From the NCBI RefSeq assembly GCF_003008695.1, contig NZ_PXZT01000009.1, positions 62,001 through 126,000 of the forward strand: 64,000 nt of DNA, written 5' to 3'. Position numbers and translations under genes: made by a program. The stretch comes from Trichococcus alkaliphilus (lineage in GTDB: Bacteria; Bacillota; Bacilli; Lactobacillales; Aerococcaceae). Under the pieces are notes generated by a model. The model saw only the letters and a program-made list of their open reading frames with translations, made no database searches and was not told where the DNA came from. Below are positions 2,130-64,000 of the stretch, piece by piece (position 1 is the first letter of the stretch; each line of letters opens with the position of its first letter).

Positions 2130-3566
2130 GTGATTGAAGTGGTTAAATCAATGGATGCGTTATTAGTGGAACAAGGTTTTATTTTTTCTCAGGTGGATAG
2201 CAGCACGCTAGATTTTCGCAATGAATCAGAATTGAACGTAGAATTCCTGAAGAAAGTCCTTAACAAAAGTAATTGGCGTCATGAATGGCAAGGAAGACTT
2301 CTGACAGTTGGAGATACTTTTTGGAACGAAAAAGTATGGCTTACCCATTGTGCTGTCGGGGGTAGAGGCAGAACCGAAATGTGCGGCTATTTCGATGAAG
2401 AGAACAGCGTTTCTTTGGAGATGTTGGATCTGTACATCAGTGGTTTGGTAAGACAATTAAATCGCCTGGGCTGCAAGACAATCATGAGCTGTGATGGAGA
2501 AGGCGAACGCATACCGAATATCGTATTTGCAACAGAGAATGATACGGAAAGAGCTGCTTTGTTGATGGCGGAGGTTGGACTCGAATATAGAGTTAAGTTA
2601 GCGCGCAAGACAATTGTCATCCTAAAGGAAAGAGAAGAGTTTTTAGGCTTTTTCAGCTTGCTGAACGGGCTATCAGAAAAGCTGAATGCAATCTCTACTG
2701 AGCACCTTGAGAGAGCAGTGTTTGAAAATGTCGTTGAAGAACTGCTCGAAATTCCTGGTGTAAGTGGATATGAATCTGTCATCCGCAACCATGTGATGAA
2801 GAAACTAGCGAAATTAACTGATGAAATGACAGTTGACGATTATGGGAATGTTTTGGCTGAGGTCACCTTCGGGAGAGGTAGCAGAGAACCTTCCTTGACG
2901 ATTATGCTGAACGGTCATTTGGATGTAGTGGATGAAATAGAGGTCGGGAGAGAAATACTGAAGTGCGGTCCTGTCTGGACTTCCAGCACCGGTATTCTGG
3001 GTGCGGACGACAGAGCCGGAATAGGCGTTATTCTGCACACCTTGAAACAGTTACAACGGATGGAATTTCGCGCTCCTGTTAAAGTGAAGATTGCCTTCAC
3101 GGTTGAGGAAGAAGTCGGATTATGCGGTGCAAAATCGGTGTCTTCAGAATTTTTGGAGGACATCCAAGCTGCCTTAGTAGTGGACCGTAGAGGAAGAGGC
3201 GATGTCGTTACTGGCACACGCGGAATCGGTTTTTGCGACGAACTATTCGGAGAGATGCTCGCACTCATCGGAAATTTAGGTGAAGAAAAACGTTGGGAAT
3301 CAACATTAGGCGGGAGTAGTGACACACGCATTTGGGCACAACAAGGGATCCAAAGTGTAAATCTATCGGTTGGCTATCAAAATGAGCACACGAGCCGAGA
3401 AGAGCTAAACCTTGATGATGCATTTGCGACAGCCAATCTGCTCAAGAAGGTATTCCTCCATCTTGACCTGCTAAAGAGCGCACTACGCGGAATTCGCGGG
3501 GCAACACCAAATACGAATGAGCGCCTTCGCCGGACTCAACGCAAAGCGGTATCGTCTGCGGTTTAA
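2130..3566 (+). CDS. M20/M42-type metallopeptidase with an extra N-terminal domain
   Basis: 478 codons; GTG 2130, GTG 2139 and ATG 2151 are possible starts behind AGAGAGG. Residues from about 195 onward are a co-catalytic zinc aminopeptidase of the M20/M42/PepT group: NGHLDVVDE (first metal ligands), GADDRAG (bridging Asp), TVEEEVGLCGAKS (catalytic Glu pair), VVDRRGRGD and a final NEHTSREEL His/Glu site. The first 190 or so residues do not look like this family and contain their own folded segment (WLTHCAVGGRGRTEMCG). The lid domain seems very short, as in M42 enzymes. The likely activity is release of amino acids from peptides in the cytoplasm, but its place before the sigma factor/helicase pair leaves the real substrate open. 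Confidence 0.7.
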   Translation: MIEVVKSMDALLVEQGFIFSQVDSSTLDFRNESELNVEFLKKVLNKSNWRHEWQGRLLTVGDTFWNEKVWLTHCAVGGRGRTEMCGYFDEENSVSLEMLDLYISGLVRQLNRLGCKTIMSCDGEGERIPNIVFATENDTERAALLMAEVGLEYRVKLARKTIVILKEREEFLGFFSLLNGLSEKLNAISTEHLERAVFENVVEELLEIPGVSGYESVIRNHVMKKLAKLTDEMTVDDYGNVLAEVTFGRGSREPSLTIMLNGHLDVVDEIEVGREILKCGPVWTSSTGILGADDRAGIGVILHTLKQLQRMEFRAPVKVKIAFTVEEEVGLCGAKSVSSEFLEDIQAALVVDRRGRGDVVTGTRGIGFCDELFGEMLALIGNLGEEKRWESTLGGSSDTRIWAQQGIQSVNLSVGYQNEHTSREELNLDDAFATANLLKKVFLHLDLLKSALRGIRGATPNTNERLRRTQRKAVSSAV

Positions 3567-3828
3567 AAACTATTAAGCATAAAACTAGGAGTGGTTATTC
3601 TGATTGCGGGAATAATTTTGTAATCGGAGGGAAAGCTCGGATTATTGAATTATTTCCGCTTTTTTGTAAAATAAATGTTGCATATTGAATTTATTTATTT
3701 TATAAGTAGATATTTATTGATATAATCAAATTAACATTATTTTCACAGCTTTTTATTATTCAGAAAAATAAGTATAGACCCAATATTTTTCAAGTTTTGA
3801 TTAAATTAATTGAATGAAGGTGATAGGA

Positions 3829-5058
3829 ATGGATAGTCAATTAGCTGAACAACTAACCACTATTTTCCCAGACAAAGTGATACCTGAAAGCATTCAACAA
3901 TTTTACATGAAGATTGAAGAACACCATATTTTAGATGATATATCGGCATATTCTGCTCTGTATCAGGATAAGGAAAAATTAAAAAAGCTACTAAATTTGA
4001 ATGGATTTTCCTGCAATTGGCCAACAAAAACCTTAAGCCGTATAGACCATAAACATGGAGGGGAAGCTTCGTTTGTCCAAGTGAATGCAAGCGCTATCAA
4101 TTCGGTGGAGAATAAGCCAAGTAAGACACTTACGGACACTCCGGCGTGGGATGATGACTTTGATCTTGATGATTTTTTGGAGTCCGAAGAGTTTTCCACG
4201 AGCATGCAACAGAATGCTGATTTAAGTGACTTTAGGTTCAATAAAGAAATGATACGTGACTATCAACAGGATAACCAAGATGTTTTGAAGGAAGCAATCG
4301 TAGAAAATAATCAACGTTTGGTATGGAAAATTGTGCAGAGGTACAAGCGACACAACACTTCAATCAGTTTAACGGAGGAAGACCTGATGATATCAGGGAA
4401 TATAGGCCTGCTTAAAGCTATTGAGAGATTCGATCCTGACATGGGTTTTGAGTTTTCCACGTATGCATCCAACTGGATAAGGCAAAGCATAGCTAGGGAT
4501 ATTATGGATTATGGTTACATGATTCGACTCCCTGTACATTTAGGCGAGCGTTTGAATAAATTAAAGCGCGTTGAGAGTGAGTTTCAGATCAAATATCCAA
4601 ACTATTCTATTGAGGAAATTTGTGCTGTTCTAGAGATGAGTAAAGAGGAGTACTTGAAACTGAAGACTTATGAATATCAGTACCGAAATATGGCTAGTAC
4701 TGATAAAGCTGTAGGTGAGGACGGGGATACTGCTTTATTAGATTTGCTTCAGAATAGGCATGCAGTTTTATCTGATGATTCAGATAACGAATTACTGAGA
4801 GCGCCTGAAGAATTAGCTATCAATAAAGCAGTAGCAGCATCAATCAACAACTTGCTAGTTGATACTTTGACTGAGACAGAATGCAGTGTAGTAAAAATGA
4901 GACTTGGCCTTGATGGCGAGGAAGAAAATACTCTAGAGAAAATTGGTGGAAAATTTGGCTTGACTAGGGAACGCATTCGCCAGATTGAGTCGAAGGCTCT
5001 GAAGAAAATAAGGAAAAAAATGAACTACTTAATAGCTACGAAGGGGGATTATTTGTGA
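3829..5058 (+). CDS. Sigma-70-family RNA polymerase sigma factor with unusual N-terminus
   Basis: 409 codons from ATG 3829, chosen because AAGGTG (3817-3822) is correctly spaced for it; ATG 3814 is upstream in frame. After an N-terminal region of about 140 residues unlike region 1 of RpoD, it has region 2 (NNQRLVWKIVQRYKR, DLMISGNIGLLKAIERFDP, FSTYASNWIRQSIARDI), region 3 (YMIRLPVHLGERLNKL) and region 4 (LTETECSVVKMRLGL, TLEKIGGKFGLTRERIRQIE). Both DNA-reading regions are nearly housekeeping-like, so it may recognise a common -10/-35 promoter. It overlaps the helicase gene by 4 nt (GTGA), so the two are translated together. A sigma factor this complete paired with one helicase is unusual. Confidence 0.88.
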   Translation: MDSQLAEQLTTIFPDKVIPESIQQFYMKIEEHHILDDISAYSALYQDKEKLKKLLNLNGFSCNWPTKTLSRIDHKHGGEASFVQVNASAINSVENKPSKTLTDTPAWDDDFDLDDFLESEEFSTSMQQNADLSDFRFNKEMIRDYQQDNQDVLKEAIVENNQRLVWKIVQRYKRHNTSISLTEEDLMISGNIGLLKAIERFDPDMGFEFSTYASNWIRQSIARDIMDYGYMIRLPVHLGERLNKLKRVESEFQIKYPNYSIEEICAVLEMSKEEYLKLKTYEYQYRNMASTDKAVGEDGDTALLDLLQNRHAVLSDDSDNELLRAPEELAINKAVAASINNLLVDTLTETECSVVKMRLGLDGEEENTLEKIGGKFGLTRERIRQIESKALKKIRKKMNYLIATKGDYL

Positions 5059-8000
5059 TTCAAACTTTAACAGACCAGACACTGCTTGATTATGCTGCTG
5101 ATCAAAAGGCCTCAAATAAGAAAATAATCTATGTTTTGAAAGGTTTCGACATCTCGCAGATTGAGGCTTTAAGTAATAAGTTGTTTCAGTTTCCTGTCTA
5201 TGAGAACCTAGAAATATTACTTGAAAACAAAGCGAAAATGACAGTAGATATAGTGCTTAAAGCAACTGCTGCAGAATCAGACTACTATTGGTGCACATAC
5301 GAAGAATTCATGACGGCTCAAGATACGCTCTATGATTTTTTTGAATGTGAATGCATTGAGAATAATCTGTACAATAAATTATATCCCTATCAAAATACGT
5401 TGACTGATATATTCGCGGTTTATGAAGAGATTTATCACAATGATGATGAGGAAATTTCTGCATCGCAGGAAGAAAAATTGAATGCCGTTTCGATCTACTA
5501 TGGGAAAATCTACTATAATGCCTCGAATGAAAAATATTACGTGACCTATGAAGCTCCAAAAATAGATTTCAATAAAATCATTCCATTCATCGACAAAAGC
5601 AATTTGAAAGTCGTCCCTATCATCAATGATTATTTGAGTGAGGAGGAGCTATATTCATTTGAGGTAGGCGATAGCGAAGATGAATTTCTTCATTTTACCG
5701 AAAAAATGGAGAATGGAAATATAGCTAAGAAAATCAGGATATTTTTTGCTGATGAAAGAGGGAGCTTGCCCAACAACTACGATGAGCGGATCGCAATCAT
5801 GCAGTACATTGCTGGGGATGAATACCAGATATTTTTGGCTACGAAACAATTAAACTCAAGAACAATCGAGCGCGAAAATGAATACAAAGAAATTTTGAAG
5901 GCCTATTGGGGGTACGACTCTTTTAAAGAATTAAAGATGTACAAGGACATTGAGACAATGGGAAAAGAAACAATTGAAGTGTCTCAAGCTCAGATTATTG
6001 ATGATATCATTGAGCAATCGGAAAATTCTATCCAAGGTCGAAGTTTTCGAGACGTATATGTTACTTCTTCCACTGGATCCGGAAAGTCTGTCATGTTTCA
6101 AATACCAGCACTGTACTTAGCCAACAAGTTTAAAGGCAACGGTTTTTTAACAATCGTAATCTCACCTTTGATCGGCTTGATGGATGATCAAGTAAAAAGT
6201 ATGGAGTTGCGAAATATAAGCAATGCTAAAACGATCCACTCAAACTTATCCCAAATGGAAAAAGAAGAGATTATTTCGGGAGTTCAAGCCGGTACGGTAG
6301 ACATTCTGTATATATCAACGGAGACTTTGCAGAGTCGCTCGGATATCGGGATGCTCATTGGACAACGAAGAGTAGGATTGTTGGTTGTGGATGAGGCTCA
6401 TATTGTAACGACTTGGGGCAAATCGTTCCGTGCAGATTACTGGTATATGGGATCTTACTTGGCAAAAATGAGGAAAAAGCAGACTTTCCCCATCGTGACA
6501 TTTACTGCAACTGCAATATACGGCGGTAAAGAAGACATGTACTTAGAAACAAGGGATAGCTTGAATATGGTCAATCCAATCGCTTATTTCGGTTATGTGA
6601 AACGCGATGATATTCTCATGTGTGTGCAGTCATCGCAAAAAGAGTTTACAAAATATTCCCGAGAATACATAAAAACTAAATTTGAAATAATGGGCAAACG
6701 TTTAAAGAGCTTTGATCGGAAAAATGAAAAAACTCTTGTCTATTTTCCGACTGTCAGAACGTTGAACATGTTCAACAGTCATTTAAGGCAGAATTATTCA
6801 TCGATTGCGGAAAAGACGGCGCTTTATTATGGCAGCCTGGACAAACATGAGAAAAAAGAGAGCCTAAAGGAATTTAAAGATGGTGACGCTAAAGTCATGC
6901 TGGCTACTAAAGCATTCGGAATGGGGATCGATATACCTGACATCCACAATGTGTATCATTATGCACCTACCGGCAATGTCATAGATTACATCCAAGAAAT
7001 AGGACGAGCTGCCAGAAGCTTGCCTGAAGGTTATGCTTGGTTCGATTTTTTGCCTCAAGATTTCACAGAAGTAAAAAGATTACACGGTATGTCCACTATA
7101 AAGAAACAGCAATTAATTGAAGTAATGAGAAAGATAGTGTCTCTTTATGAGCAAAAGAAAAATAGAAATATCGTGGTTAGTGCGGATGACTTCAAATACA
7201 TATTCAATCAGAATGAATTAGAGGATTCGGATATCGACAATAAGTTGAAAATAACGTTATTGATGATTGAAAAAGATTTTGAATCCACGAAAAAATTGAG
7301 CTATGCACCGTTTGTTGCCAGGCCTAGAGCCATGTATGGGAATGAGCTTGTCTTTCTCTCAAAAAAAGGAAAAAAATTATTGGAGTCATCAAAACTGAAA
7401 AAGTATTTTAAGGAAGAAAAGCAACTTGATACTGACTATTATGATTCGATTTGTCAGATGAACTTCAAACAATTATGGGAAGACAGATATCCATCCCTGT
7501 CTTTTCCGCAATTCAAATATAAAATGTACGCGGAGGTGGAGGAATTAAAGGATCAAAAGATTCTTAAAGAAATCAGTCCTGCCATGGGCGTAGAAATCAA
7601 TTATTTGAAGAATGATGTCCAAACGGTTATTGCTAGCATAAACATTGTGTTGGCTGCCCTTGAAGAATTTTTAAGAGGGAAAGTCTATTCTAAAACGTAT
7701 TTTAATGAAAAGATGATCAGTGAATTTTTACAAACTAAACTGGGTATTCAAAACAGATTTGAAGCACTAGGTTTGAGTAGTGTACTCCTGAATTCACTTA
7801 TACAAGTCAGCAAAATAAAGAATGCCGGATACATAAAGGCTCGTGATGAGCGCGGTGACCTATATAATGTAACTACGCATTATATGACCTACTTTGACCA
7901 AATGAAAAGAATAATAAATGGCTTATTCTATGGGGAAAAATTTGCTGATAAGTATGATGACAAGCTCGTTTTTTACGCACAACGAAGCAACAAGAATGAG

Positions 8001-9226: not shown

Positions 9227-10183
9227 GTGCGAAATGTAAGCAAAATGATGGTTATAATTGTCTCTGTTTGTGTCATCGCGGTTTCATCCATCTATTATAA
9301 TTATAAATTTGTCAGATATGACAGTGACAAAATTGTTTTTGGCGCCACTTATATGACCATGAACAACAGTTTCTACAAAGCCATAACAGATGAAATAGAA
9401 AAACAGATCAATGATCGTGGCGATATCTTGTATACCCGTGATCCTGCTTTGGATGTCGAGAAACAAAACGAACAAATCAATGACTTGATCGAGATGGGGA
9501 TTGATGTATTGATCATCAACCCGGTTGATTATTCGAAAGTGAATGATTCTTTGAAAAAAGCCAAAGAAAAAGGCATCAGGATTATTGTCATTGATGCGCA
9601 GCTGGATGATGACACCATTGCCGATACGACTGTTTTATCCAATAATTATGATGCTGGCGTGCAATGCGCCAAGGATATGATGCGCAATCTGGCTTCAGCA
9701 AAGATAGTGCTTTTGAAGCACAGCGCTGCTTTATCCTCTGTGGATCGGATCAACGGTTTTCTGGATACTATCAAAGATAATGATAATTACACGGTTGTTG
9801 CAAGTGAAGAGTGTTTGGGCCAAACGGAAGTTGCGATGCCCGTAATGATGGAAATCATTGATAAAAAAATCGATTTCGACGTTGTCATGGCTTTAAACGA
9901 TCCTAGCGCATTGGGTGCTTTGGCGGCAATAAAAGATAAACAAATCAATCATGAAGTACTGGTCTATGGCGTGGATGGTTCACCGGATATGAAAAAACTA
10001 TTGATTGACAGTGATGAAGTCCAGGGAACTGCAGCACAATCGCCTACCACGATGGGGGCAAAAGCGATTGAGGCAGCCTATGAAATTGTTGATGATGAAC
10101 AATATGAAAAGTCGATTGTTGTGCCGGTTACCTTAATAACCAAGGACAACATCAGTGAATATGATATTTCGGGGTGGCAATAA
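9227..10183 (+). CDS. Membrane-anchored periplasmic-binding-protein-like sugar sensor
   Basis: About 318 codons. GTG 9227 is favoured because GGTGGGAG (9207-9214) precedes it; GTG 9203 and ATG 9245 are alternatives. An N-terminal hydrophobic helix (VIIVSVCVIAVSSIYY) without a proper lipobox should anchor it outside the membrane. The rest is the RbsB/LacI-type ligand-binding fold: FGATYMTMNNSFYKAITDEI, IDVLIINPVDYSKV, GIRIIVIDAQLDDD, DRINGFLDTI, DVVMALNDPSALGAL and VYGVDGSPDMKKLL. Its stop overlaps the kinase start and no ABC ATPase or permease is nearby. Its job is probably to sense a sugar and pass the signal to the kinase, as XylFII does with LytS in clostridia. Confidence 0.8.
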   Translation: MRNVSKMMVIIVSVCVIAVSSIYYNYKFVRYDSDKIVFGATYMTMNNSFYKAITDEIEKQINDRGDILYTRDPALDVEKQNEQINDLIEMGIDVLIINPVDYSKVNDSLKKAKEKGIRIIVIDAQLDDDTIADTTVLSNNYDAGVQCAKDMMRNLASAKIVLLKHSAALSSVDRINGFLDTIKDNDNYTVVASEECLGQTEVAMPVMMEIIDKKIDFDVVMALNDPSALGALAAIKDKQINHEVLVYGVDGSPDMKKLLIDSDEVQGTAAQSPTTMGAKAIEAAYEIVDDEQYEKSIVVPVTLITKDNISEYDISGWQ

Positions 10184-55129: not shown

Positions 55130-55777
55130 ATGAAACGCGTATCTATTTTGAATCGTTTGGAAAAAACGGGGGTCGTGGCAGTCGTCCGCGGCGCCACGAA
55201 AGAAGAGGCTCTGAAGTCCAGCCACGCAATCGTTGCTGGCGGTCTGAAAGGCATCGAGTTGACATTCACGGTCCCGAACGCGGATGAAGTCATCCGTGAG
55301 TTGGCGTCAGTCTATAAGGATCAGCCGGAAGTCGTGGTCGGAGCGGGGACGGTATTGGATGCCATCACTGCCCGCCTGGCGATTCTGGCAGGCGCAGAGT
55401 TCATCGTCAGCCCGAACTTCGACAAGGAAACAGCAGAGCTGTGCAATTTGTACCAAATCCCTTATCTGCCGGGCTGCATGACGATCACGGAAATGAAAGA
55501 AGCACTGAAGAGCGGCGCGGACATCATCAAGCTGTTTCCGGGCAGTGCCTACGGTCCGAGCATCGTGTCGAGCTTCAAAGCACCGATGCCGCACCTCAAC
55601 CTGATGCCGACAGGCGGCGTCAGCCTGGCGAACATGCAGGAATGGTTCGATGCCGGCGTCATCGCGGTCGGCGTCGGTGGCAATCTGTTGGCACCAGCCG
55701 CGACCGGTGCCTTTGATAAAGTGACCGAAGTGGCAAGACAGTACGCGGATAAGTTTGCGGAGATCAAAGGACTCTGA
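55130..55777 (+). CDS. eda: KDPG/KHG aldolase
   Basis: 215 codons, GTGGGAGACAG before ATG 55130. GVVAVVRGATKEEA, KGIELTFTVPNADEVI, VGAGTVLDAITARLAI, FIVSPNFDKETAE and Schiff-base Lys in DIIKLFPGSAYGPS. It splits 2-keto-3-deoxy-6-phosphogluconate to pyruvate and glyceraldehyde 3-phosphate. Together with the dehydratase this gives most of a hexuronate pathway, but the KDG kinase is not in the window. GC-richer than the divergent gntR gene. Confidence 0.93.
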   Translation: MKRVSILNRLEKTGVVAVVRGATKEEALKSSHAIVAGGLKGIELTFTVPNADEVIRELASVYKDQPEVVVGAGTVLDAITARLAILAGAEFIVSPNFDKETAELCNLYQIPYLPGCMTITEMKEALKSGADIIKLFPGSAYGPSIVSSFKAPMPHLNLMPTGGVSLANMQEWFDAGVIAVGVGGNLLAPAATGAFDKVTEVARQYADKFAEIKGL

Positions 55778-55816
55778 ATGAATAAGGAATGCTGAATAAA
55801 TCTGAATAAACAATAA

Positions 55817-55854
55817 AAAAGAGGTTGGAACATTTTATTGTTCCAGCCTCTTTA
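55817..55854. terminator. Terminator between convergent genes
   Basis: AAAGAGGTTGGAACA and TTGTTCCAGCCTCTTT with a 6-nt loop; A and T runs at both ends. Confidence 0.85.
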
Positions 55855-55873
55855 AATTATCATTCTGCTTAAA

Positions 55874-56443
55874 TTATTTCACAATCCCAAACCCACCGGC
55901 CCAAGTGATTTCTTCTTTTACGGCCAATGTCATCTGCAGAAACCCGAATGCTTCCAGTTCGCGTGCGCGTTTCAAGCTGCCGGCGTCGACAACAGTCAAC
56001 GGGCTGTCTTTCAGCGCAGTGATCAATTGCTCTTTCGCGTCTGCAAAATCAGAAGCCAGCAACACGACTGTAGAGATTTCACCGCCGACTTTACCTGAAT
56101 CCAATGTTCCGGCAAAATTTGTGTTGAAGCCTTTGACAACTTTGCTGTTTGGAAGTTTCTTCTGGATTTCCGAAGCAGCAGAGCCATCTGCCGGCACAAC
56201 CAATTCGTCCCACGTTTCGAAGTTTAATGGATTGGTGATGTCAATGACAATTTTTCCGTCCAATTGCTCTTTATAATTGCTGATCACATCATCGACTGCA
56301 GGATAAGGGACTGCCAATACAACGACTTCATCCAGTGTTGCATCCGTTTCATGTCCAACATAATTCACTGCATTTCCTGCAGCTTCAAAATTCTTTGCGA
56401 TTACTGCTGCCATATTGCCTTTTCCGAAAATTGTTACGTTCAT
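55874..56443 (-). CDS. F420H2:NADP reductase-like NAD(P)-binding protein
   Basis: 189 codons; minus-strand ATG at 56443 with AGGAGG. MNVTIFGKGNMAAVIAKNF is the dinucleotide fold, followed by VVLAVPYPAVDDVI, IDITNPLNFETW, KVVKGFNTNFAGTL, of the Fno/NADP oxidoreductase coenzyme F420-dependent group. In Lactobacillales, which lack F420, such proteins are thought to use other flavins or carbonyls. Its 5' region shares the 15-bp HxlR-type word with 22426. Confidence 0.85.
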   Translation of the reverse strand: MNVTIFGKGNMAAVIAKNFEAAGNAVNYVGHETDATLDEVVVLAVPYPAVDDVISNYKEQLDGKIVIDITNPLNFETWDELVVPADGSAASEIQKKLPNSKVVKGFNTNFAGTLDSGKVGGEISTVVLLASDFADAKEQLITALKDSPLTVVDAGSLKRARELEAFGFLQMTLAVKEEITWAGGFGIVK

Positions 56444-56530
56444 TTTGGTTCCTCCTGAAAAATTTATTGGGTGTGGAATGGGCTGTTTGTCCCATGCAGT
56501 CATTATAGACATTCCAGCTATCAATCTGTA

Positions 56531-56573
56531 AGTAGGCACTTTTTAATCAGTAGGTTACAAAAAGGTGCGTACT
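56531..56573. promoter_or_regulatory. Probable HxlR operator, copy 2
   Basis: AGTAGGCACTTTTT and AAAAAGGTGCGTACT form an almost perfect dyad (AGTAnGCACnTTTTT and complement) between divergent oxidoreductase-type genes. AAGTAGGCACTTTTT is identical to the word next to the hxlR gene. Confidence 0.65.
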
Positions 56574-56633
56574 AGTCAGCCGGAATGCTGTCATATAAGA
56601 TGGGGTTAATTAAATTTGATTGGGGATGTAAGC

Positions 56634-56993
56634 ATGTTTGAACATATTTCGTGGATTTTTGAGTTAACGTTAAATACTAAAGAATTATCCGGTTTGAAAG
56701 AGCTGATGAATGAAATGGTGAACGCAACAAAGGAAAATGAGCCAGGCACATTGGCTTATGAATGGACTGTTTCGGAAGATGGAGAAATTTGCCATATTTA
56801 TGAATGCTACGAAAATGATGAAGCTACTTTAGCGCATCTTGCAACATTCAAAGAAAAATATGCTGCGCGTTTGCTGGCTTTTGGCGATGCAACCAGTTTT
56901 GTCGTTTATGGTGCACCGACTGCAGCAGTAATCGAAGCTTTGGACGGTTTTGGAGCTAAATACATGACGCCTATCGGTGGCTTTAGACGTTAA
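56634..56993 (+). CDS. Antibiotic-biosynthesis-monooxygenase (ABM) domain protein
   Basis: 119 codons from ATG 56634. Ferredoxin-like fold of the ABM/YgiN family: ELMNEMVNATKENEPGTLAY, EWTVSEDGEICHIYECYEND, HLATFKEKYAARLLAFG. Family members oxidise quinols or are heme-degrading; here a quinone-handling role fits the HxlR context. Start of a short operon with the SDR gene. Confidence 0.8.
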   Translation: MFEHISWIFELTLNTKELSGLKELMNEMVNATKENEPGTLAYEWTVSEDGEICHIYECYENDEATLAHLATFKEKYAARLLAFGDATSFVVYGAPTAAVIEALDGFGAKYMTPIGGFRR

Positions 56994-57016
56994 CATAAAG
57001 GAGCGAGGAATGAGTT

Positions 57017-57877
57017 ATGAAAAACATCGAAGAATTATTAGGCTATCAAGGCAAGACAGTCGTGATCACGGGAGCTGCTTCCGGCATGGCAAAATCCGCC
57101 ACAGAACTATTATTGAGCCTAGGAGCAAAAGTCTATGCAGTCGATCGCAATGAGACGGACTTGCCCGTATTTCAATTCATTTCGGGGGATTTAGGCCAAA
57201 AAGCGACAATCGATGAGGTTGTGGCACAATTGCCCGAGCAAATCGATGCGCTGTTTATGTGTCATGGTGTGGGTATCGGAAAAGGCAAAGAAAAATTCAT
57301 CCAGATGGTCAATTTTGTCGGGCAACGCTACATGGTTGAAGAACTGTTGCCGAGAATCACAGATGGCGGCTCAGTGACATTCATTTCATCCACTGGCGGT
57401 TATGGTTGGGAGCACAACATGCAGCATGTTGGCGAAGTATTGGCTTGCCCAACTTTTGAATCAACTGAAAAATGGGTGGATGAGCACTTGGATCTGTTTA
57501 CGGATGGGCAGACTCCCGATCCTTATCAGTTTTCTAAGCAGTGCGTCAGCACATATGTGAAAGAAAAAACGCGTGCACCGGAGTTTATCGGCCGTAAAAT
57601 CCGCATCAACGCGATTGCGCCAAGCTTCACTTCCACAGCTTTGATCAAAGAGTTCAATCTGGCTGCCAGCAATGATGGCACAGAAGCCGGTGGGGCACAA
57701 GTGATGCACGATCTGTTCCTGAAAAGCTGGAACGGCCGCGCGGGCTTGCCGGAAGAAATGGGCTATCCCTTGGTGTTCATCGGCAGCGACCTGTTCAGTT
57801 ATCTGAGCGGCCAAGTCCTTTATATCGACTATGGCATGACCGGAGAATTGGATTATCAAGCTGCTGCGACAAAATGA
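57017..57877 (+). CDS. Short-chain dehydrogenase/reductase
   Basis: 286 codons, AAGGAGCGAGG before ATG 57017. TGAASGMAKSATELLLSLGA (cofactor loop), FMCHGVGIG (variant NNAG), FISSTGGYGWEH (Ser), catalytic YQFSKQ (YxxxK) and INAIAPSFTSTAL. Broad alcohol/ketone oxidoreductase, like 3-alpha-hydroxysteroid dehydrogenase relatives. Co-transcribed with the ABM gene. Confidence 0.88.
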   Translation: MKNIEELLGYQGKTVVITGAASGMAKSATELLLSLGAKVYAVDRNETDLPVFQFISGDLGQKATIDEVVAQLPEQIDALFMCHGVGIGKGKEKFIQMVNFVGQRYMVEELLPRITDGGSVTFISSTGGYGWEHNMQHVGEVLACPTFESTEKWVDEHLDLFTDGQTPDPYQFSKQCVSTYVKEKTRAPEFIGRKIRINAIAPSFTSTALIKEFNLAASNDGTEAGGAQVMHDLFLKSWNGRAGLPEEMGYPLVFIGSDLFSYLSGQVLYIDYGMTGELDYQAAATK

Positions 57878-58074: not shown

Positions 58075-58372
58075 AGAAAAAAGCAAAGAAGAGGAAAGTA
58101 CTTGTTGGATAGTCCTTCAGAGAGCTCTTGGTTGGTGGGAAAGAGCGGACGGCAACACAGGAAAAATGGTCTCAGAGTTGATGCGCTGAAAGGAAGTTTC
58201 CTTCAGGCGCGTCCGGACGCCCCCGTTAGACAGGCAACGGTATCGAGGATGATGCATCCTTCTGTACTGGTTGAGATGGCAATCGCAAGGTTGTCATGAA
58301 GCAAGGTGGTAACGCGATCTAACCGTCGTCCTTTCTGGAATCGATCCAGAGAGGGCGACTTTTTATTACATT
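58075..58372 (+). promoter_or_regulatory. T-box riboswitch, probably methionine
   Basis: The leader has GAAGAGGAAAGTA, the Stem I elements TGTTG...CAACA, AGAGAGCTCT and GGTTGGTGGGAA, the T-box word AAGGTGGTAACGCG (58303-58316) and a terminator (GTCGTCC...GGGCGAC then TTTTT, 58325-58364). The likely specifier is ATG at 58166-58168 in GAAAAATGG, giving methionine. The T-box tail TGGT pairs with a tRNA whose discriminator base is A, as in tRNA-Met. Uncharged tRNA would allow transcription of the operon behind it. Specifier choice is by eye. Confidence 0.85.
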
Positions 58373-58397
58373 TTATTAAACTTGAGGAGGAAAACAT

Positions 58398-59444
58398 ATG
58401 GCAGACAATAACAGAAGAAAATTGATTTTTGACGCTTTCGACAACAAAGAAACGGAGCGTGTGCCGGTTGGCTTTTGGTTTCACTTTGTTTTCGGTGATG
58501 ATCAATTCCGTGGTTTGGAGGACAGATTGGTTTTGGACCGAGTGATCGACGGGCACAAGGATTTCTACGACGCCTTCAATCCTGATTTCGTGAAAATTAT
58601 GAGCGACGGCTTCTTCGGGCATCCGAGCCTGTTGGAAAAAAAGATCGAGCATGCTGATGACTTATACAACGTCAAGGCTGTGGGGCCGGTCCATCCGTGG
58701 ATAACGGAGCAGGTCAAAACGGTCAAACAAATCAAGGAATCCTTCAACGGCGAAATCGCAACCTTCTATAATATCTTTTCGCCAGCGAACTATATCCGGA
58801 TTGCCTTCGAGGCATGGGATAAGGATTCTGAAAAATTCACCCGTTTCTTTGAGACGGACCCAGGCGCTCTCGCTTATGCGGCGAACGAAATCGCCAAGGA
58901 CGTGGCGCTTCTGACAAGGAAAGTCATCGAAGAAGCAGGTGCGGACGGCATCTACTTGAGCGTGCAGAATGTCCAAACCAGTGCAGCCACGAAAGAAGCC
59001 TACCACACCTATATCGCGCCGAGTGAATTGGATGTGTTAGCGGCGGCAAATGCAGTCAGTGACTATAACATTCTGCACATCTGCGGCTATGAGCATAATC
59101 AAAACAACTTATCATACTACCAGGACTATGAAGCAAAAGCATATAACTGGGCGGTCCATACAGAAAAAATCAGCCTGAAGAAAGGCAAAGACTTCTTCGG
59201 CAACAAAGCGGTAATCGGCGGATTCGACAATAACGCAGGCACGCTGCTGGATGCAGGGAAAGAAGTGGACATCGCCCAATACACAGCCGACCTCATCCAA
59301 GAAATCGGCGACACGGGCGTCATCATCGGAGCGGACTGCACCGTCAATCCCGAGATTGAACTGGATCGTTTGACATTGGTCCGGGATACAGCTGCGGGTG
59401 TGTCGGGCAAGAATCGCAAACAAACAAGCGCTCTGCATAACTGA
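58398..59444 (+). CDS. UroD-fold corrinoid/Zn methyltransferase-like protein
   Basis: 348 codons, GAGGAGGAAAACAT before ATG 58398. Uroporphyrinogen-decarboxylase fold (VPVGFWFHFVFGDD, NPDFVKIMSDGFFG), but with the zinc motif of MtaA/CmuA-type methyltransferases: His227-x-Cys229 (LHICGY) and Cys314 (GADCTVNPE), an HxC-X84-C spacing. Heme precursor decarboxylation is therefore unlikely. Under a methionine-type T-box it probably moves a methyl group, perhaps toward homocysteine (inference). No corrinoid protein gene is in view. Confidence 0.85.
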   Translation: MADNNRRKLIFDAFDNKETERVPVGFWFHFVFGDDQFRGLEDRLVLDRVIDGHKDFYDAFNPDFVKIMSDGFFGHPSLLEKKIEHADDLYNVKAVGPVHPWITEQVKTVKQIKESFNGEIATFYNIFSPANYIRIAFEAWDKDSEKFTRFFETDPGALAYAANEIAKDVALLTRKVIEEAGADGIYLSVQNVQTSAATKEAYHTYIAPSELDVLAAANAVSDYNILHICGYEHNQNNLSYYQDYEAKAYNWAVHTEKISLKKGKDFFGNKAVIGGFDNNAGTLLDAGKEVDIAQYTADLIQEIGDTGVIIGADCTVNPEIELDRLTLVRDTAAGVSGKNRKQTSALHN

Positions 59445-59591
59445 GTAAAGAATGCGACGGTGTTCGTCACAGCCGGTCAAGCCTGATAGACAATCGGTAT
59501 TATTTTTAAAAGAGCAGCCGTGATAGAATCAAGCACATAACTAAAACAGCCGCCTTCCGAAGAACCGGAAGGCAAAGAAAGGAGGGGTCCC

Positions 59592-60650
59592 ATGATCGGG
59601 ATTGTCATTATCGGTTGCGGGGATGTTTCGAAACAGAGGCACGCCCCTCTAAGCCACAAAAACGAAAAAGTCGATCTGATTGGATTCTATAACCGAACGA
59701 TTGCCAAAGCAGAAGCTTTCCAAAAGAAGTACGGCGGAAAAGTCTATCGGACTCTTGAAGAGATCTGGGAAGACGGAACAGTCGATGCCGTCATCGTCGC
59801 AACGAACGAACAGTCGCACAGCCCCATCACCATCGCTGCCTTGGAAGCCGGCAAGCATGTGCTTTGCGAAAAGCCGATGGCGGATTCGGTGGCTGAGGCA
59901 GAACGAATGCAGCAGGCAGCCGAAAAAACGGGCAAAAAGCTGATGATCATCCATAACCAACGGCTTTATCCCGCGCATCAGCTGCTGAAAAAATTACTGG
60001 CGAAAGGGACGCTCGGAAAGGTCCATGCTTACCGGACGACCTTGGCCAACCAAGGCCAGGAAAATGACGGTTGGGGTACGGCATTCCCTGATTTCTACGA
60101 CCGCATCGGCCATACGAACGGGGCTTTGGCGCAAGTGGGCGTCCACCGCATCGACTTGCTGAACTACTTGTTCAGTGAAGATCCCGTCACCGCAGTATTG
60201 GCCCACACCATGACGCAAGGCAAGCAGTTGGAGGACGGAAGCCCGGTTCCTTATGAGGATTATGCGGTACTGCAGCTCCAACATCGTTCCGGCATCCAGG
60301 GGACCTTGCTGAGCCACTGGTTCGATTACTCGAACGAAAGGCAGACCGTCATCTACGGAGAAAAGGCCACTGCCATTACTTATGCGGACGGACATCCGGT
60401 TGCACTCTACCGGAAGAACGGGGAAAAGACCTACTTGGATGATCCATCGCAGGACGGCTTATATGCAGAACCATTGACACCGATCGTCGACAAATTTGTC
60501 GAAAGCATCGAACAGGATACCACCCCGTTTGTGACAGCAGAACAGGGGATAAACGCATTGCGCATTCTTGCCGCCGCTTACCGGTCACAGGAAACGCAGA
60601 CTTGGACACCAATCGAACAGGAGGACGCACACTATGACAGAAAAATTTAA
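59592..60650 (+). CDS. Gfo/Idh/MocA-family oxidoreductase
   Basis: 352 codons, AAAGGAGGGGTCCC before ATG 59592. Rossmann part (IVIIGCGDVSKQRHAPLSHK, IVATNEQSHSPITIAALEAG, HVLCEKPMADSVAEAERM with the Lys of EKP) and C-terminal beta domain with IGHTNGALAQVGVHRIDLL. Oxidises or reduces a sugar-like or polyol substrate with NAD(P). Placed between two methyltransferase-like genes and overlapping the second by 17 nt. A hairpin GCCTTCC/GGAAGGC at 59552-59573 precedes it. Confidence 0.9.
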   Translation: MIGIVIIGCGDVSKQRHAPLSHKNEKVDLIGFYNRTIAKAEAFQKKYGGKVYRTLEEIWEDGTVDAVIVATNEQSHSPITIAALEAGKHVLCEKPMADSVAEAERMQQAAEKTGKKLMIIHNQRLYPAHQLLKKLLAKGTLGKVHAYRTTLANQGQENDGWGTAFPDFYDRIGHTNGALAQVGVHRIDLLNYLFSEDPVTAVLAHTMTQGKQLEDGSPVPYEDYAVLQLQHRSGIQGTLLSHWFDYSNERQTVIYGEKATAITYADGHPVALYRKNGEKTYLDDPSQDGLYAEPLTPIVDKFVESIEQDTTPFVTAEQGINALRILAAAYRSQETQTWTPIEQEDAHYDRKI

Positions 60651-61737
60651 TGGAAGAAAACGAATAGAAGCAGCTCTCGCAAAGCAACCTTTGGACAGAC
60701 CGGCCATCTCCGGTTGGCGTCACATGCCATTGGTCGATCGGGACGTCGAGGCATTTGCCGCAGCGACAATCGCGTTCACCGATGAGAACGATTGGGATTT
60801 GATCAAGCTGATGTCGCAAGGGCAATTCTTCGCTGAAGCCTACGGAACGCCTATCGAATTCTCGAAGGATGCGAAGGAATGGGCAGGCAAAATCCTGGAG
60901 TATCCGATCCGGAGCGCGGAAGATTTGACGCGGTTGAAGCCGTTGCAAGCCGATAACCCTGTTCTCCAGCGCGAGGCCGCTTTTGCCAAGAAAATCGTGG
61001 ATCATTATCCAGGTGAAAAAGTGGTCGTCGGCACCGTGTTCTCGCCTTTGTCATGGGTGAAGCAATTTGCGCCAGGTAACGATTCAATCGCGCATATCGT
61101 CGACGGACCGGAAGAAAGTCCGATTGCAGATTTCCTTGAGAACCACAGTGAGGAATTGAAGGCAGCACTCGATGTGCTGCATTCCTCAAATAAAGTATTT
61201 GTGGACGAATTGATTGCTGCCGGCGTGGACGGTTTCTTCATCGCCGAGCAGTACAGCCAACGCGGAGATATTTCCGAAGCGGATTATGCAGCTTTCGCCA
61301 AGCCTTATACGGATGACCTTTTGGCTTACATCAACGACCGCACCTGGTTCAACATCCTGCATGCACATGGGCATGTCGATCTGGCTGTGGAACGTTTCAT
61401 TGATTACGATGTCCAGGCAATCAACTGGGAAGACGGAAGCGATCACGCTGAAGATCCGACCCGCTTGAGTTTCCGGAAACTGCGGGCATTGACGGACAAG
61501 CTGCTGATCGGCGGCATCTCGCCGAAAACCGATCTGACGTTTTCTGATAATGCGCAGGAAGTCGAGGACTTGCTGGTCGATCGCTTGGCGGATGTCCTAG
61601 CCGAAACGGGCGATACGGGTATCGTATTTGCACCGGGCTGCGCGATTTCATTGGAAGCCAACCCGGACTTTTATCAACGCATCAACGCTGCCGCCCAAAA
61701 AGTGAGCGGGACAACCATAAACGCAACGAACCATTAA
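60634..61737 (+). CDS. Second UroD-fold methyltransferase-like protein, altered metal site
   Basis: 367 codons from ATG 60634 (GGAGGACGCACACT). Same fold as the protein at 58398 (RPAISGWRHMPLVDRD, GVDGFFIAEQYSQRGD, NILHAHGHVDLAVE). The HxC motif reads HAH (His243, His245) with Cys336 in APGCAIS at the expected distance. A catalytic variant or a methyl-donor-side partner is possible. It shares the operon with the transporter, so it may act on the imported compound. Confidence 0.85.
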   Translation: MTEKFNGRKRIEAALAKQPLDRPAISGWRHMPLVDRDVEAFAAATIAFTDENDWDLIKLMSQGQFFAEAYGTPIEFSKDAKEWAGKILEYPIRSAEDLTRLKPLQADNPVLQREAAFAKKIVDHYPGEKVVVGTVFSPLSWVKQFAPGNDSIAHIVDGPEESPIADFLENHSEELKAALDVLHSSNKVFVDELIAAGVDGFFIAEQYSQRGDISEADYAAFAKPYTDDLLAYINDRTWFNILHAHGHVDLAVERFIDYDVQAINWEDGSDHAEDPTRLSFRKLRALTDKLLIGGISPKTDLTFSDNAQEVEDLLVDRLADVLAETGDTGIVFAPGCAISLEANPDFYQRINAAAQKVSGTTINATNH

Positions 61738-61766
61738 AATAATTGATAACACAGGAGGAGTAGAAT

Positions 61767-62639
61767 ATGAAGAGAAGAAGATTATTGACGACAGTAAGTT
61801 TATTGGGAGCAGCATTTTTGGCCGGCTGCGGTCAGACGGACGCGGAAACAACGAGTGAGGCAACGAGCAGCTCTGCAGCTGAGGCAGTGGAAGTGACCAC
61901 AGTGACTGTAGCGCACACGCAAAGTTCAGCACCGATGAATTATGTGGACGAGAACGGCGAGTCCACCGGCTATGAAGTCAGCGTTTTGAAGGCTATCGAC
62001 GAGTTGTTGCCGCAGTATGAATTCGAATATGTGCCGACTTCCGACGAAGACCTACTGATCGGGATCGAATCCGGCAAGTACGATGTCGGAACAAAAGGCG
62101 CTTGGTATACAGAGGAACGCGCGCAAAAGTTCATCTTCCCTGAAAATTATATCGGTGCCAGCAGCATCGGCGTGCTGATCCGTTCGGAAGATGCCGAAGA
62201 AATCACGGACTTGGAGTCGTTTGCGGCTGCGGGCAAGAGCTTGGTTCCGATTTCTCCTAATAATGCACAGTACAACGTGATCGAGGACTTCAATGCGGAA
62301 CATCCGGATACACCGATCGAACTGACTGCAGCAGATACATTTGAGATTGCTGATGCTTACACTTGGTTATTGGAAGGACGCTACGACGGCTTCTTCGCTG
62401 TCAAGACCGCTTATGAAGTGAACGTGTTGGCGGAAGGTGCGCCATACAGCCAATACAAGGATGACTTCTCCTACTTCGTCTATGAGGCACTGCCGACTTG
62501 GCCGTTGTTCAACAAAGAGCAGCAGGAGCTGGCTGATGCGTATGATGAAGCCTTCCTGCAATTGGAAGAGGACGGTACCATCGATGATTTGATGATCGAG
62601 TTCCTTGGCGAAAATACATTCCAATACGTGAAAGAATAA
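61767..62639 (+). CDS. Amino-acid ABC transporter binding lipoprotein
   Basis: 290 codons, AGGAGG before ATG 61767. Lipobox LAGC at the end of a clear signal peptide, a serine/threonine/glutamate linker, then the SBP_bac_3 fold (VAHTQSSAPMNYVDENGEST, GKYDVGTKGAWYTEERAQKF, LLEGRYDGFFAVKTAYEV). Together with the next two permeases it forms an uptake system of the TcyJ/YxeM kind. The T-box points to methionine or a methylated precursor as cargo. Confidence 0.9.
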   Translation: MKRRRLLTTVSLLGAAFLAGCGQTDAETTSEATSSSAAEAVEVTTVTVAHTQSSAPMNYVDENGESTGYEVSVLKAIDELLPQYEFEYVPTSDEDLLIGIESGKYDVGTKGAWYTEERAQKFIFPENYIGASSIGVLIRSEDAEEITDLESFAAAGKSLVPISPNNAQYNVIEDFNAEHPDTPIELTAADTFEIADAYTWLLEGRYDGFFAVKTAYEVNVLAEGAPYSQYKDDFSYFVYEALPTWPLFNKEQQELADAYDEAFLQLEEDGTIDDLMIEFLGENTFQYVKE

Positions 62640-62656
62640 GCATAAAAGTGCCGACG

Positions 62657-62699
62657 TAGAAGGACCTGACCACAGCCTTGCAGGGCTGGGTTAGGACCG
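62657..62699 (+). promoter_or_regulatory. Hairpin between binding protein and permease genes
   Basis: GGACCTGACCACAGCC and its near complement GGGCTGGGTTAGGACC with a short TTGCA loop, without T run. Likely stabilises the upstream message, giving more binding protein than permease. Confidence 0.6.
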
Positions 62700-62745
62700 T
62701 CTCCTCAGGCATTGACGGGACATTCGACAGACAAAAGGAGGCTAA

Positions 62746-63459
62746 ATGATGAATCGTCCATTTGACATCACTTATATTTGGAAGGCTGTGCCAGAAATTC
62801 TATCCGGTCTGGGCGTAACGCTGCAATTTTTGATCGGTACGATCGTGATCGGGGGGCTGTTGGGCTTTCTGGCGACTTGGGCAAGGATCAGCGGTCCAAA
62901 ATGGCTGCGGGCAATCGTCCATGGCTACATCTGGATCATCCGCTGCACGCCTTCGATCGTCATGATGTTCTTGGTCTTCTACGGCTTGCCGGAGGTGCTG
63001 TTGGGCGTCTTCGACATCGACATCAACAGCTGGAATCGCCTCTACTTTGTCGTCATCGCCCTGTCGATCCTGTTCTCGGCGCCTTGTTCGGAAATCATGC
63101 GTTCGGCTTACTCGGCAGTCGCTAAAGTTCAGCGTGAGGCTGCCCTCAGTATCGGCCTCAGCGAAGCGCAAGCGTTCAGAAGGATTATTTTGCCCCAGGC
63201 TCTGGTGAGTGCGTTGCCGAACCTCGGCAATTCGTTCATCCTGCTGATGAAGGAGGGGGCTTTGGCCTATACCATCGGCATCGTCGACATCATGGGCAAA
63301 GGCCAGCTGATCATCGGGCGCAATCTCGGCGGTTATTCGATCGAGACCTACATCGCGTTGGCAGGCATCTATTGGCTGCTGACGCTGGCAATCGAGAAGG
63401 CATTCAAGTGGGCGGAAGACAAATTATCGGCAGGAAAACAACCGCTGCGTGCGGCATAG
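62746..63459 (+). CDS. Amino-acid ABC transporter permease
   Basis: 237 codons (ATGATG at 62746/62749, AGGAGG upstream). HisM-type membrane protein with the EAA loop EAALSIGLSEAQAFRRIILPQA and IIRCTPSIVMMFLVFYGLP. Forms the channel with the next permease; both follow the same lipoprotein. Confidence 0.92.
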   Translation: MMNRPFDITYIWKAVPEILSGLGVTLQFLIGTIVIGGLLGFLATWARISGPKWLRAIVHGYIWIIRCTPSIVMMFLVFYGLPEVLLGVFDIDINSWNRLYFVVIALSILFSAPCSEIMRSAYSAVAKVQREAALSIGLSEAQAFRRIILPQALVSALPNLGNSFILLMKEGALAYTIGIVDIMGKGQLIIGRNLGGYSIETYIALAGIYWLLTLAIEKAFKWAEDKLSAGKQPLRAA

Positions 63460-63477
63460 GAGAGAGGGGCGAGACGC

Positions 63478-64000
63478 ATGACCATTGATTTACCTTATAT
63501 ACAGGAACTTCTGATCCTTGTGTTGAAGGGCATCCCGACAACGCTGCGCTTGACCTTTATCCCCTTGCTCATCGCACTGCCGTTTGCTTTCCTGATCGCG
63601 GTGGCGAGACAGCGGAACGTCAAGGTGCTGGCCCGGGTTTCCCAAGTTTATGTGTCATTCATCAGAGGGACGCCCTTGATCGTCCAGATTCTGGTGATGT
63701 ACAGCCTGATCCCGAGTCTGCTGAACGTTCTCGTGAAAAGGTGGGGACTGGATTACGACGTTTTCGGCATCGATCCGATCTATTACGCTTATATCGTCTT
63801 TACTTTGAATACAATCGCGATCCTGTCGGAGGTTTTCCGTTCGGCCCTCGAAACGGTCGACAAACGCCAGCTTGAGGCGGCCCTTTCGATTGGGCTGCTG
63901 CCGGTCCAGGCATACAGTCGCATCGTGATTCCGCAAGCGTTGGTGGCGGCAACGCCGAACTTGTGCAACAGCACCGTCAATCTGCTGAAATCGACCTCGT
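63478..64000 (+). CDS. Second amino-acid ABC transporter permease, cut by the window end
   Basis: ATG 63478 with GGAGAGAGGGG; 174 codons visible. FIRGTPLIVQILVMYSLIP and EAALSIGLLPVQAYSRIVIPQ are the permease signatures. The ATPase gene is presumably downstream, outside the window. Confidence 0.9.
   Translation, partial: MTIDLPYIQELLILVLKGIPTTLRLTFIPLLIALPFAFLIAVARQRNVKVLARVSQVYVSFIRGTPLIVQILVMYSLIPSLLNVLVKRWGLDYDVFGIDPIYYAYIVFTLNTIAILSEVFRSALETVDKRQLEAALSIGLLPVQAYSRIVIPQALVAATPNLCNSTVNLLKSTS

Follow-up and report, generated by a model that had tools for sequence, protein, structure and literature searches.

The DNA analyzed here, called the window throughout, is a stretch of 64,000 nucleotides (nt) from a genome of the genus Trichococcus, order Lactobacillales (G000:C25:62001-126000, where G000 is our label for the window's own genome). 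Toward its end lies a T-box leader followed by an operon for two UroD-fold proteins, a Gfo/Idh/MocA oxidoreductase, and an ABC importer of the amino-acid type. The leader had been spotted in a preliminary description of the sequence, and it is real and far above chance: the Rfam covariance model RF00230 matches positions 58077-58336 of the forward strand with 113.9 bits against a gathering threshold of 93 (E 2e-24), the sole over-threshold Rfam match in the 64-kb window. An intrinsic terminator at 58325-58369 of the same strand, with a 15-pair stem, a 5-nt loop, and a TTTTTATTAC tail, provides the alternative to the antiterminator. The terminator hairpin proper (58325-58359) shares sequence with the 3' end of the Rfam match, and shuffled sequences averaged 0.4 such sites.

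The first UroD-fold protein, U1, with a His227-Cys229-Cys314 pattern, is encoded at 58398-59444 (forward strand, as are the genes up to the window end; PF01208, 44.8 bits against a cut-off of 23.9). It is followed by the Gfo/Idh/MocA oxidoreductase (59592-60650; PF01408, 114.5 bits) and by the second UroD-fold protein, U2, with a His-x-His ... Cys pattern (60634-61737; PF01208, 79.4 bits against the cut-off of 23.9). The U2 query sequences started at 60637, one codon late, and its residues H242, H244, and C335 are numbered without Met1. The importer comprises a family-3 solute-binding lipoprotein (61767-62639; PF00497, 85.8 bits), permease 1 (62746-63459; PF00528 and TIGR01726 over their cut-offs), permease 2 (63478-64275, assigned by Pfam and NCBIfam and cut by the window end at 64000), and an ATPase past the window end at window-equivalent positions 64250-64990, after which comes a gene for an OppA-like binding protein. 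The gene content given in the preliminary description, two UroD folds, the oxidoreductase, and the amino-acid importer, agrees with these Pfam matches and with a fold search for U1. Among solved chains, the closest to the solute-binding protein are 4eq9, 2o1m (YtmK), 4c0r, and 4gvo (Lmo2349), all of which we take to be glutathione- or cystine-type binders. Upstream of the leader, positions 55130-57877 hold KDPG/KHG-aldolase, ABM-domain, and SDR genes, an apparently unrelated sugar-acid cluster.

To read the specifier we used a codon rule, in which the triplet stands 6 nt ahead of a G[AC]G anchor placed 94-104 nt from the leader start. Applied strictly, the rule named the right amino acid for 8 of the 12 aminoacyl-tRNA synthetase leaders of the same genome (leuS, valS, tyrS, argS, ileS, thrS, alaS, and glyQ). 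The serS and pheS leaders were read wrongly, the proS leader has no such anchor, and the hisS leader reads GAC (Asp), which would fit a putative hisS-aspS operon. The trpD leader was misread too (AAT), although an overlapping anchor would yield TGG. In the window, the rule gives ATG (Met) at 58166-58168, forward strand. The T-box bulge, UGGU at 58307-58310 of that strand as read from the sequence, would pair with a discriminator A73 followed by CCA; A73 was seen in the CAT-anticodon tRNAs of a congener (G012), and the same tRNA pattern applied to G000 found no CAT-anticodon tRNA. Both the ATG specifier and the fit of the T-box tail to a discriminator A, as originally proposed, are borne out by these readings.

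G000 contains 26 T-box matches at E<=0.001, 14 of them above the cut-off, and ATG was read in eight of the 26, that is, in the window's leader and seven others. These seven precede metN (two leaders in tandem), metA, metY, two YxjG/H-type MetE-like genes, and an mmuP-like gene for an S-methylmethionine-permease-like protein (592 bits against a cut-off of 716), which has a PF02574 gene after it. The tandem pair ahead of metN lies at G000:C23:116171-116745 (L010 and L013). The stretch holding the genome's metE-metF (L152, G000:C24:7500-11500), unlike the other methionine genes, gave zero Rfam matches over threshold. In another leader (L021), a TGC specifier and a UGGA bulge occur together with a 2-nt spacer identical to that of the window leader; the symporter behind it, which had no NCBIfam match at 1e-50, is presumably a cystine carrier.

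A shift of the reading by one position would turn the codon into AAU (Asn) or AAA (Lys). Such a shift is conceivable in that the loop GAAAAAUGG carries one extra A compared to the Rfam consensus and in that the codon rule is imperfect (8 of 12 synthetase leaders). However, the distance to the stem anchor yields ATG, the same as in the seven other leaders, and relatives without the extra A (L052, L077, and L150, the last read by eye) have ATG at the standard spacing. An Asn leader would, in addition, need UGGC, since tRNA-Asn of G012 seems to carry G73. Given the register and the ATG of the relatives without the extra A, Asn and Lys were rejected, and we regard a specifier for anything but methionine as extremely improbable. 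Methionine specificity of the window leader is thus supported, as far as its sequence can be read.

The arrangement is conserved within the genus. U1 is present in 12 of 13 Trichococcus genomes, the exception being only 51% complete, and all 12 U1-bearing genomes have an above-threshold Rfam T-box 5' of U1 with ATG as the specifier. The leaders counted are those of the window, L029-L033, L045, and L048-L052, where L029-L033 correspond by coordinates to genomes G001, G008, G004, G007, and G003. The short stem under the specifier loop shows, by eye, paired variation: GAGG/UCUC in the window, GAGG/CCUC in the other Trichococcus leaders, and AAGA/UCUU in L077. One record, L030 (Sedimentibacter sp. 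SX930, MUZD01000011.1), has a U1 that is 95% identical to that of the window and the same leader; its coordinates equal those of G008, which is placed in the window's genus, and the organism name of the record looks wrong.

At E<=1e-25, 43 of 395 Lactobacillales genomes, from 9 of 80 sampled genera, contain it: 11 Trichococcus, 24 from one genus of a family labeled f4, whose neighbors look streptococcal, and 8 others. Some Lachnospiraceae have it as well. The solute-binding protein, both permeases, and the ATPase stand beside U1 at 11 of 12 Trichococcus loci (the remaining one runs off its contig), at 12 of 13 other Lactobacillales loci read (L081 being the miss), at all four named Streptococcus loci, and at all five clostridial loci of at least 46% identity; in these counts L083 is truncated where its contig stops, and L040, truncated likewise, was excluded. 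U1 is often doubled, and in several genomes both copies adjoin the importer. Of the loci read, only those of Trichococcus had Gfo/Idh in the neighborhood of U1. At one locus (L133, G682), a tandem U1-like pair lies, to judge by appearance, beside kinase-like genes and a different ABC set, of the branched-chain type.

A second gene order, ATPase-SBP-permease-permease-UroD (SBP, solute-binding protein), came up in the U2 search at 7 of 10 loci from outside Trichococcus; among the ten, permease 2 of L161 looks split, L164 is partial, and L163 and L165 are without the set. In Trichococcus G005, this second order adjoins the U1 operon and has its own over-threshold T-box with ATG. The linkage bears on a plain alternative, in which the operon serves the uptake of methionine or an analogue and the UroD proteins are unrelated or accessory (e.g. 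acting on a sulfoxide, a D-isomer, or a carrier). Importers with amino-acid solute-binding proteins are indeed known under Met T-boxes, such as yckJ-yckK-metC of L. paracasei (PMC6004538). Yet the UroD gene keeps to the importer down to 26-27% identity, in two gene orders and, in several genomes, in two copies. An unrelated role would hardly account for this, and we regard mere uptake as distinctly unlikely.

The predicted control of the module in other lineages also points to sulfur amino acids. Met T-boxes precede U1-U1'-SBP-permeases-ATPase in G392 (107.6 bits) and G217 (103.7 bits), both from one other genus. In a Lachnospiraceae metagenome-assembled genome (L034), a leader peptide of 46 codons, 9 of them for Met and 6 for Cys (MRQTKAATMMNLMCMEGMCMCMCCMSC...), lies at 9719-9859, ahead of a terminator (9896-9915) and the U1-importer operon. 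The peptide reaches 14 Met/Cys per 20 residues, and besides its nested starts none of 33,851 small open reading frames (ORFs), a set that includes nested starts and overlapping loci, reached 10. By its sequence, this leader looks like a classical sulfur amino-acid attenuator. Eighteen further upstream stretches searched for Met/Cys-rich leader peptides gave weak candidates only (L131, L075, and L077). Lachnospiraceae MA2020 (L035) has metY upstream of the operon, and one promoter element of 40 nt occurs, with 1 mismatch, both before metY and before the solute-binding protein gene; a recent promoter duplication would give the same picture. The same locus contains a 1206-amino-acid ORF at 3046-6666, which looks like a Cas12a, with direct repeats between this ORF and metY.

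The second gene order has leaders of its own. In G146 (L159), an over-threshold T-box of 103.7 bits at 4383-4635 precedes the ATPase-SBP-permease-permease-UroD operon, and by eye it combines TGC with UGGA, i.e. it reads Cys. Two T-boxes with ATG and UGGC, L079 6063-6303 and L080 5485-5726, scored 81.0 and 76.7 bits, below 93, upstream of a divergent ATPase-permease-permease-SBP-UroD operon, and the L158 leader, ATG with UGGU by eye, is not over threshold either; none of the three is counted as main evidence. Met-box operators were considered and dropped: the four named Streptococcus loci showed no full palindrome, and 13 upstream stretches gave one half site (L073). A LysR-type gene lies divergently upstream in L036 and L037, with a look-alike in L039. 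Taken as predicted from their leaders, the loci show Met- or Cys-linked control by differing devices across several lineages.

This joint Met and Cys control is what a thioether cleavage would call for. An imported S-alkyl amino acid, in the simplest case S-methylcysteine, would have its alkyl group swapped by the UroD enzyme onto homocysteine, giving cysteine and methionine, and the Met T-boxes of the U1 type, the Met/Cys peptide of L034, the Cys T-box of L159, and a Met T-box over the second gene order at L084 would all be joined by it. The relatives of the solute-binding protein, YtmK and Lmo2349, which we presume to be cystine-type binders, point the same way, although sequence neighbors of such a protein do not determine its ligand. 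On the other side, Met and Cys codons could merely signal general sulfur starvation, and methyl thioethers give up their methyl group poorly unless a corrinoid takes part. We consider cleavage of this kind unlikely.

The UroD-fold proteins themselves give a clue to the chemistry. The AlphaFold2 model of U1 (pLDDT 91.7) was matched by Foldseek to UroD, the MtaA-type chains 4ay8 and 4ay7, MetE, and 3rpd; the weaker model of U2 (pLDDT 77.2) matched the same group. Identity of U1 to 4ay8/4ay7 in the fold alignment is 14-16%. In an alignment of 44 UroD proteins, which includes both window proteins and many near-identical members, H227 and C314 are invariant (44 of 44); between them, 32 proteins have Cys as the middle ligand and 12 have His. 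His-Cys-Cys is unchanged in all 13 U1 proteins of alignment A1, and the U2 pattern is His-His-Cys. By sequence, the only solved chain matched was 4ay7, a methylcobalamin:coenzyme M methyltransferase, whose LHICG motif aligns with that of U1 in a weak, single-sequence phmmer match (E 0.004). A His-Cys-Cys set was argued by Kountz and Balskus to favor sulfur or selenium ligands (PMC10418091).

Specific families were tested and rejected for both proteins. For HemE (TIGR01464, cut-off 302.95), U2 scored 23.8 and U1 had no match at 0.001; for MtaA/CmuA (TIGR01463, cut-off 235.4), the scores were 30.9 for U1 and 24.4 for U2; and PF01717, the mark of MetE and of Mes core methionine synthases, was not among the families of U1 and U2 at E<=0.001. 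The U1 branch of the UroD family thus falls under no specific family model.

Searches for corrinoid, MetE, MTHFR, and PF02574 genes were made in 21 U1 genomes, which were chosen by hand and not sampled. B12-binding_2 (PF02607) had no match in 14 of these 21, or in 12 of the 18 in which U1 is at least 34% identical. The single match in G000 shares an 807-amino-acid frame with an S-methyl_trans domain and is MetH-like. Among the operon genes there is neither a corrinoid-protein gene nor a Ram/RACE activase, the latter looked for in the operon and not genome-wide; a Type 1 mlp gene cluster was rejected as an identity for the operon on the absence of a corrinoid gene there. The preliminary description had also held that the gene set is not a standard methionine pathway, and this is right: G000 has, besides, metE with metF, two MetE-like genes, the MetH-like protein, and a pair of the mmuP-mmuM type.

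These searches speak to a corrinoid-dependent mechanism, in which U1 and U2, working like MtaA or Mlp proteins, would exchange the methyl group with a cobalamin carrier (free cobalamin or MetH). It draws on the 4ay7 match, with which fold and ligands agree, and on the MetH-like protein of Trichococcus, and it has to contend with an operon free of corrinoid proteins, the 14 chosen genomes without B12-binding_2, and a U1 score far below the mtaA_cmuA cut-off. We give it little credence.

The reading we favor, with moderate confidence, is that starvation induces the uptake of an amino acid that is methylated and probably contains sulfur, and that the methyl group of this compound would pass to homocysteine without a corrinoid protein. 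Its regulatory part is well supported. Uncharged tRNA-Met would read AUG, its A73-CCA would pair with UGGU, the antiterminator would form, and the operon would be transcribed; with charged tRNA-Met the terminator would stay. The operon would then supply the UroD-fold enzymes and, with them, an ABC importer whose substrate would resemble an amino acid and probably be methylated and contain sulfur. The chemistry, zinc included, is inferred: U1, with His-Cys-Cys, may coordinate homocysteine through zinc as a thiolate and methylate it at the expense of the imported compound, yielding methionine, and U2, with His-His-Cys, perhaps serves a second methyl group or a second substrate. Gfo/Idh might condition the donor or the product, in Trichococcus only. 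Since most U1 genomes tested are without B12-binding_2, a direct transfer would be expected, of the kind that BHMT or MmuM carry out but on a UroD barrel. Sulfonium or quaternary donors are chemically suited to this. In G000 the mmuP-mmuM-like pair already handles S-methylmethionine, so a different donor is likelier; an S-methylated cysteine would explain Cys signals beside Met signals. The salvage of methyl groups suggested in the preliminary description stood in part: ligand pattern, importer, and Met/Cys-linked control fit it, while methyl transfer and the substrate go beyond them, and the Cys-linked controls allow for sulfur salvage.

Several observations weigh against this salvage of a methyl group. 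Direct transfer would be unusual on a UroD fold, the MtaA-type relatives using corrinoids, and free cobalamin or MetH could take part. When a profile built from 13 U1 proteins was run against the PDB, no chain matched at 0.01. Meth_synt_2 is present in 20 of the 21 chosen genomes (a short match in G398) and MTHFR in all 21, so that U1 would supplement ordinary methionine synthesis rather than substitute for a methionine synthase. The importer's solute-binding protein and permeases were beside U1 at none of 13 distant clostridial loci (26-43% identity), and at some of these U1 lies, by appearance, near peptidases, kinases, aldo-keto reductases, or other ABC systems. The four named Streptococcus loci yielded no T-box. 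The Cys-linked controls, i.e. the L034 peptide and the L159 T-box, are not explained by methyl salvage alone. Finally, 6 of the 12 Trichococcus leaders have UGGA, which is mismatched to A73; UGGA leaders are L045 and L047-L051 (G012, G003, G006, G010, G009, and G002), with UGGAACCACG where others have UGGUAAC[GA]CG. UGGA leaders beside A73 tRNAs in G012 make a natural discriminator mismatch, which may serve to probe the strictness of bulge pairing.

A broader proposal would take in both kinds of signal. A corrinoid-free salvage module of Bacillota, in which UroD zinc enzymes take an S-alkyl amino acid from the importer, hand its methyl or alkyl group to homocysteine, and release a thiol amino acid, would ease Met and Cys starvation in one step. 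For that reason it would answer, by turns, to Met T-boxes, Cys T-boxes, and Met/Cys peptides. We offer it as a speculation that is rather doubtful as it stands.

The gene set points to a function for a branch of the UroD family that lies outside the specific family models, and as differing regulatory devices across lineages point to methionine or cysteine, the prediction is directly testable. If the transfer is direct, it would be a corrinoid-free methylation of homocysteine from a small imported donor on the UroD fold, where such thiol methylation is known with a corrinoid protein. A link between UroD proteins, T-boxes, and methionine importers was not described in the literature searched, subscription papers lying outside that search, and the pairing of UroD proteins with the importer suggests an unrecognized salvage route for sulfur amino acids or methyl groups.

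Among known systems, the coenzyme M methyltransferases MtaA/MtbA (4ay7/4ay8) are alike in the UroD fold, the LHICG motif, and a Cys as third ligand, which MtaA has of its own. In contrast, U1 and U2 are below the family cut-offs and their operon is without a corrinoid protein; to our knowledge, coenzyme M is not expected in these bacteria. MmuP-MmuM likewise places an importer and a homocysteine methyltransferase under a Met T-box, and such a pair exists in G000, but MmuM is a PF02574 protein and MmuP an amino-acid permease, both unrelated to U1, U2, and the importer. Type 1 mlp clusters (PMC10418091) share several UroD-superfamily proteins, a sulfur/methionine context, and His-Cys-Cys, and differ in that the Trichococcus operon has no corrinoid gene. 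To the core or folate-independent methionine synthases MesA-D (Price et al., PMC7857596), the likeness lies in the proposed homocysteine chemistry and in 3rpd as a fold match; U1 and U2, however, are without PF01717, belong to another sequence family, and are importer-linked. The closest regulatory parallel is found in the Met T-boxes of Lactobacillales, where one study lists L. paracasei leaders before metE-metF, yxjH-luxS, metQ3NP, and yckJK-metC (PMC6004538). The architecture, the ATG specifier, and the control of sulfur amino-acid importers are the same, whereas here two UroD-fold genes and a Gfo/Idh gene lie downstream and UGGA stands in half of the leaders from Trichococcus. Sulfur transporters under Met T-boxes are already known, and the T-box of the window adds one more member to a known kind.

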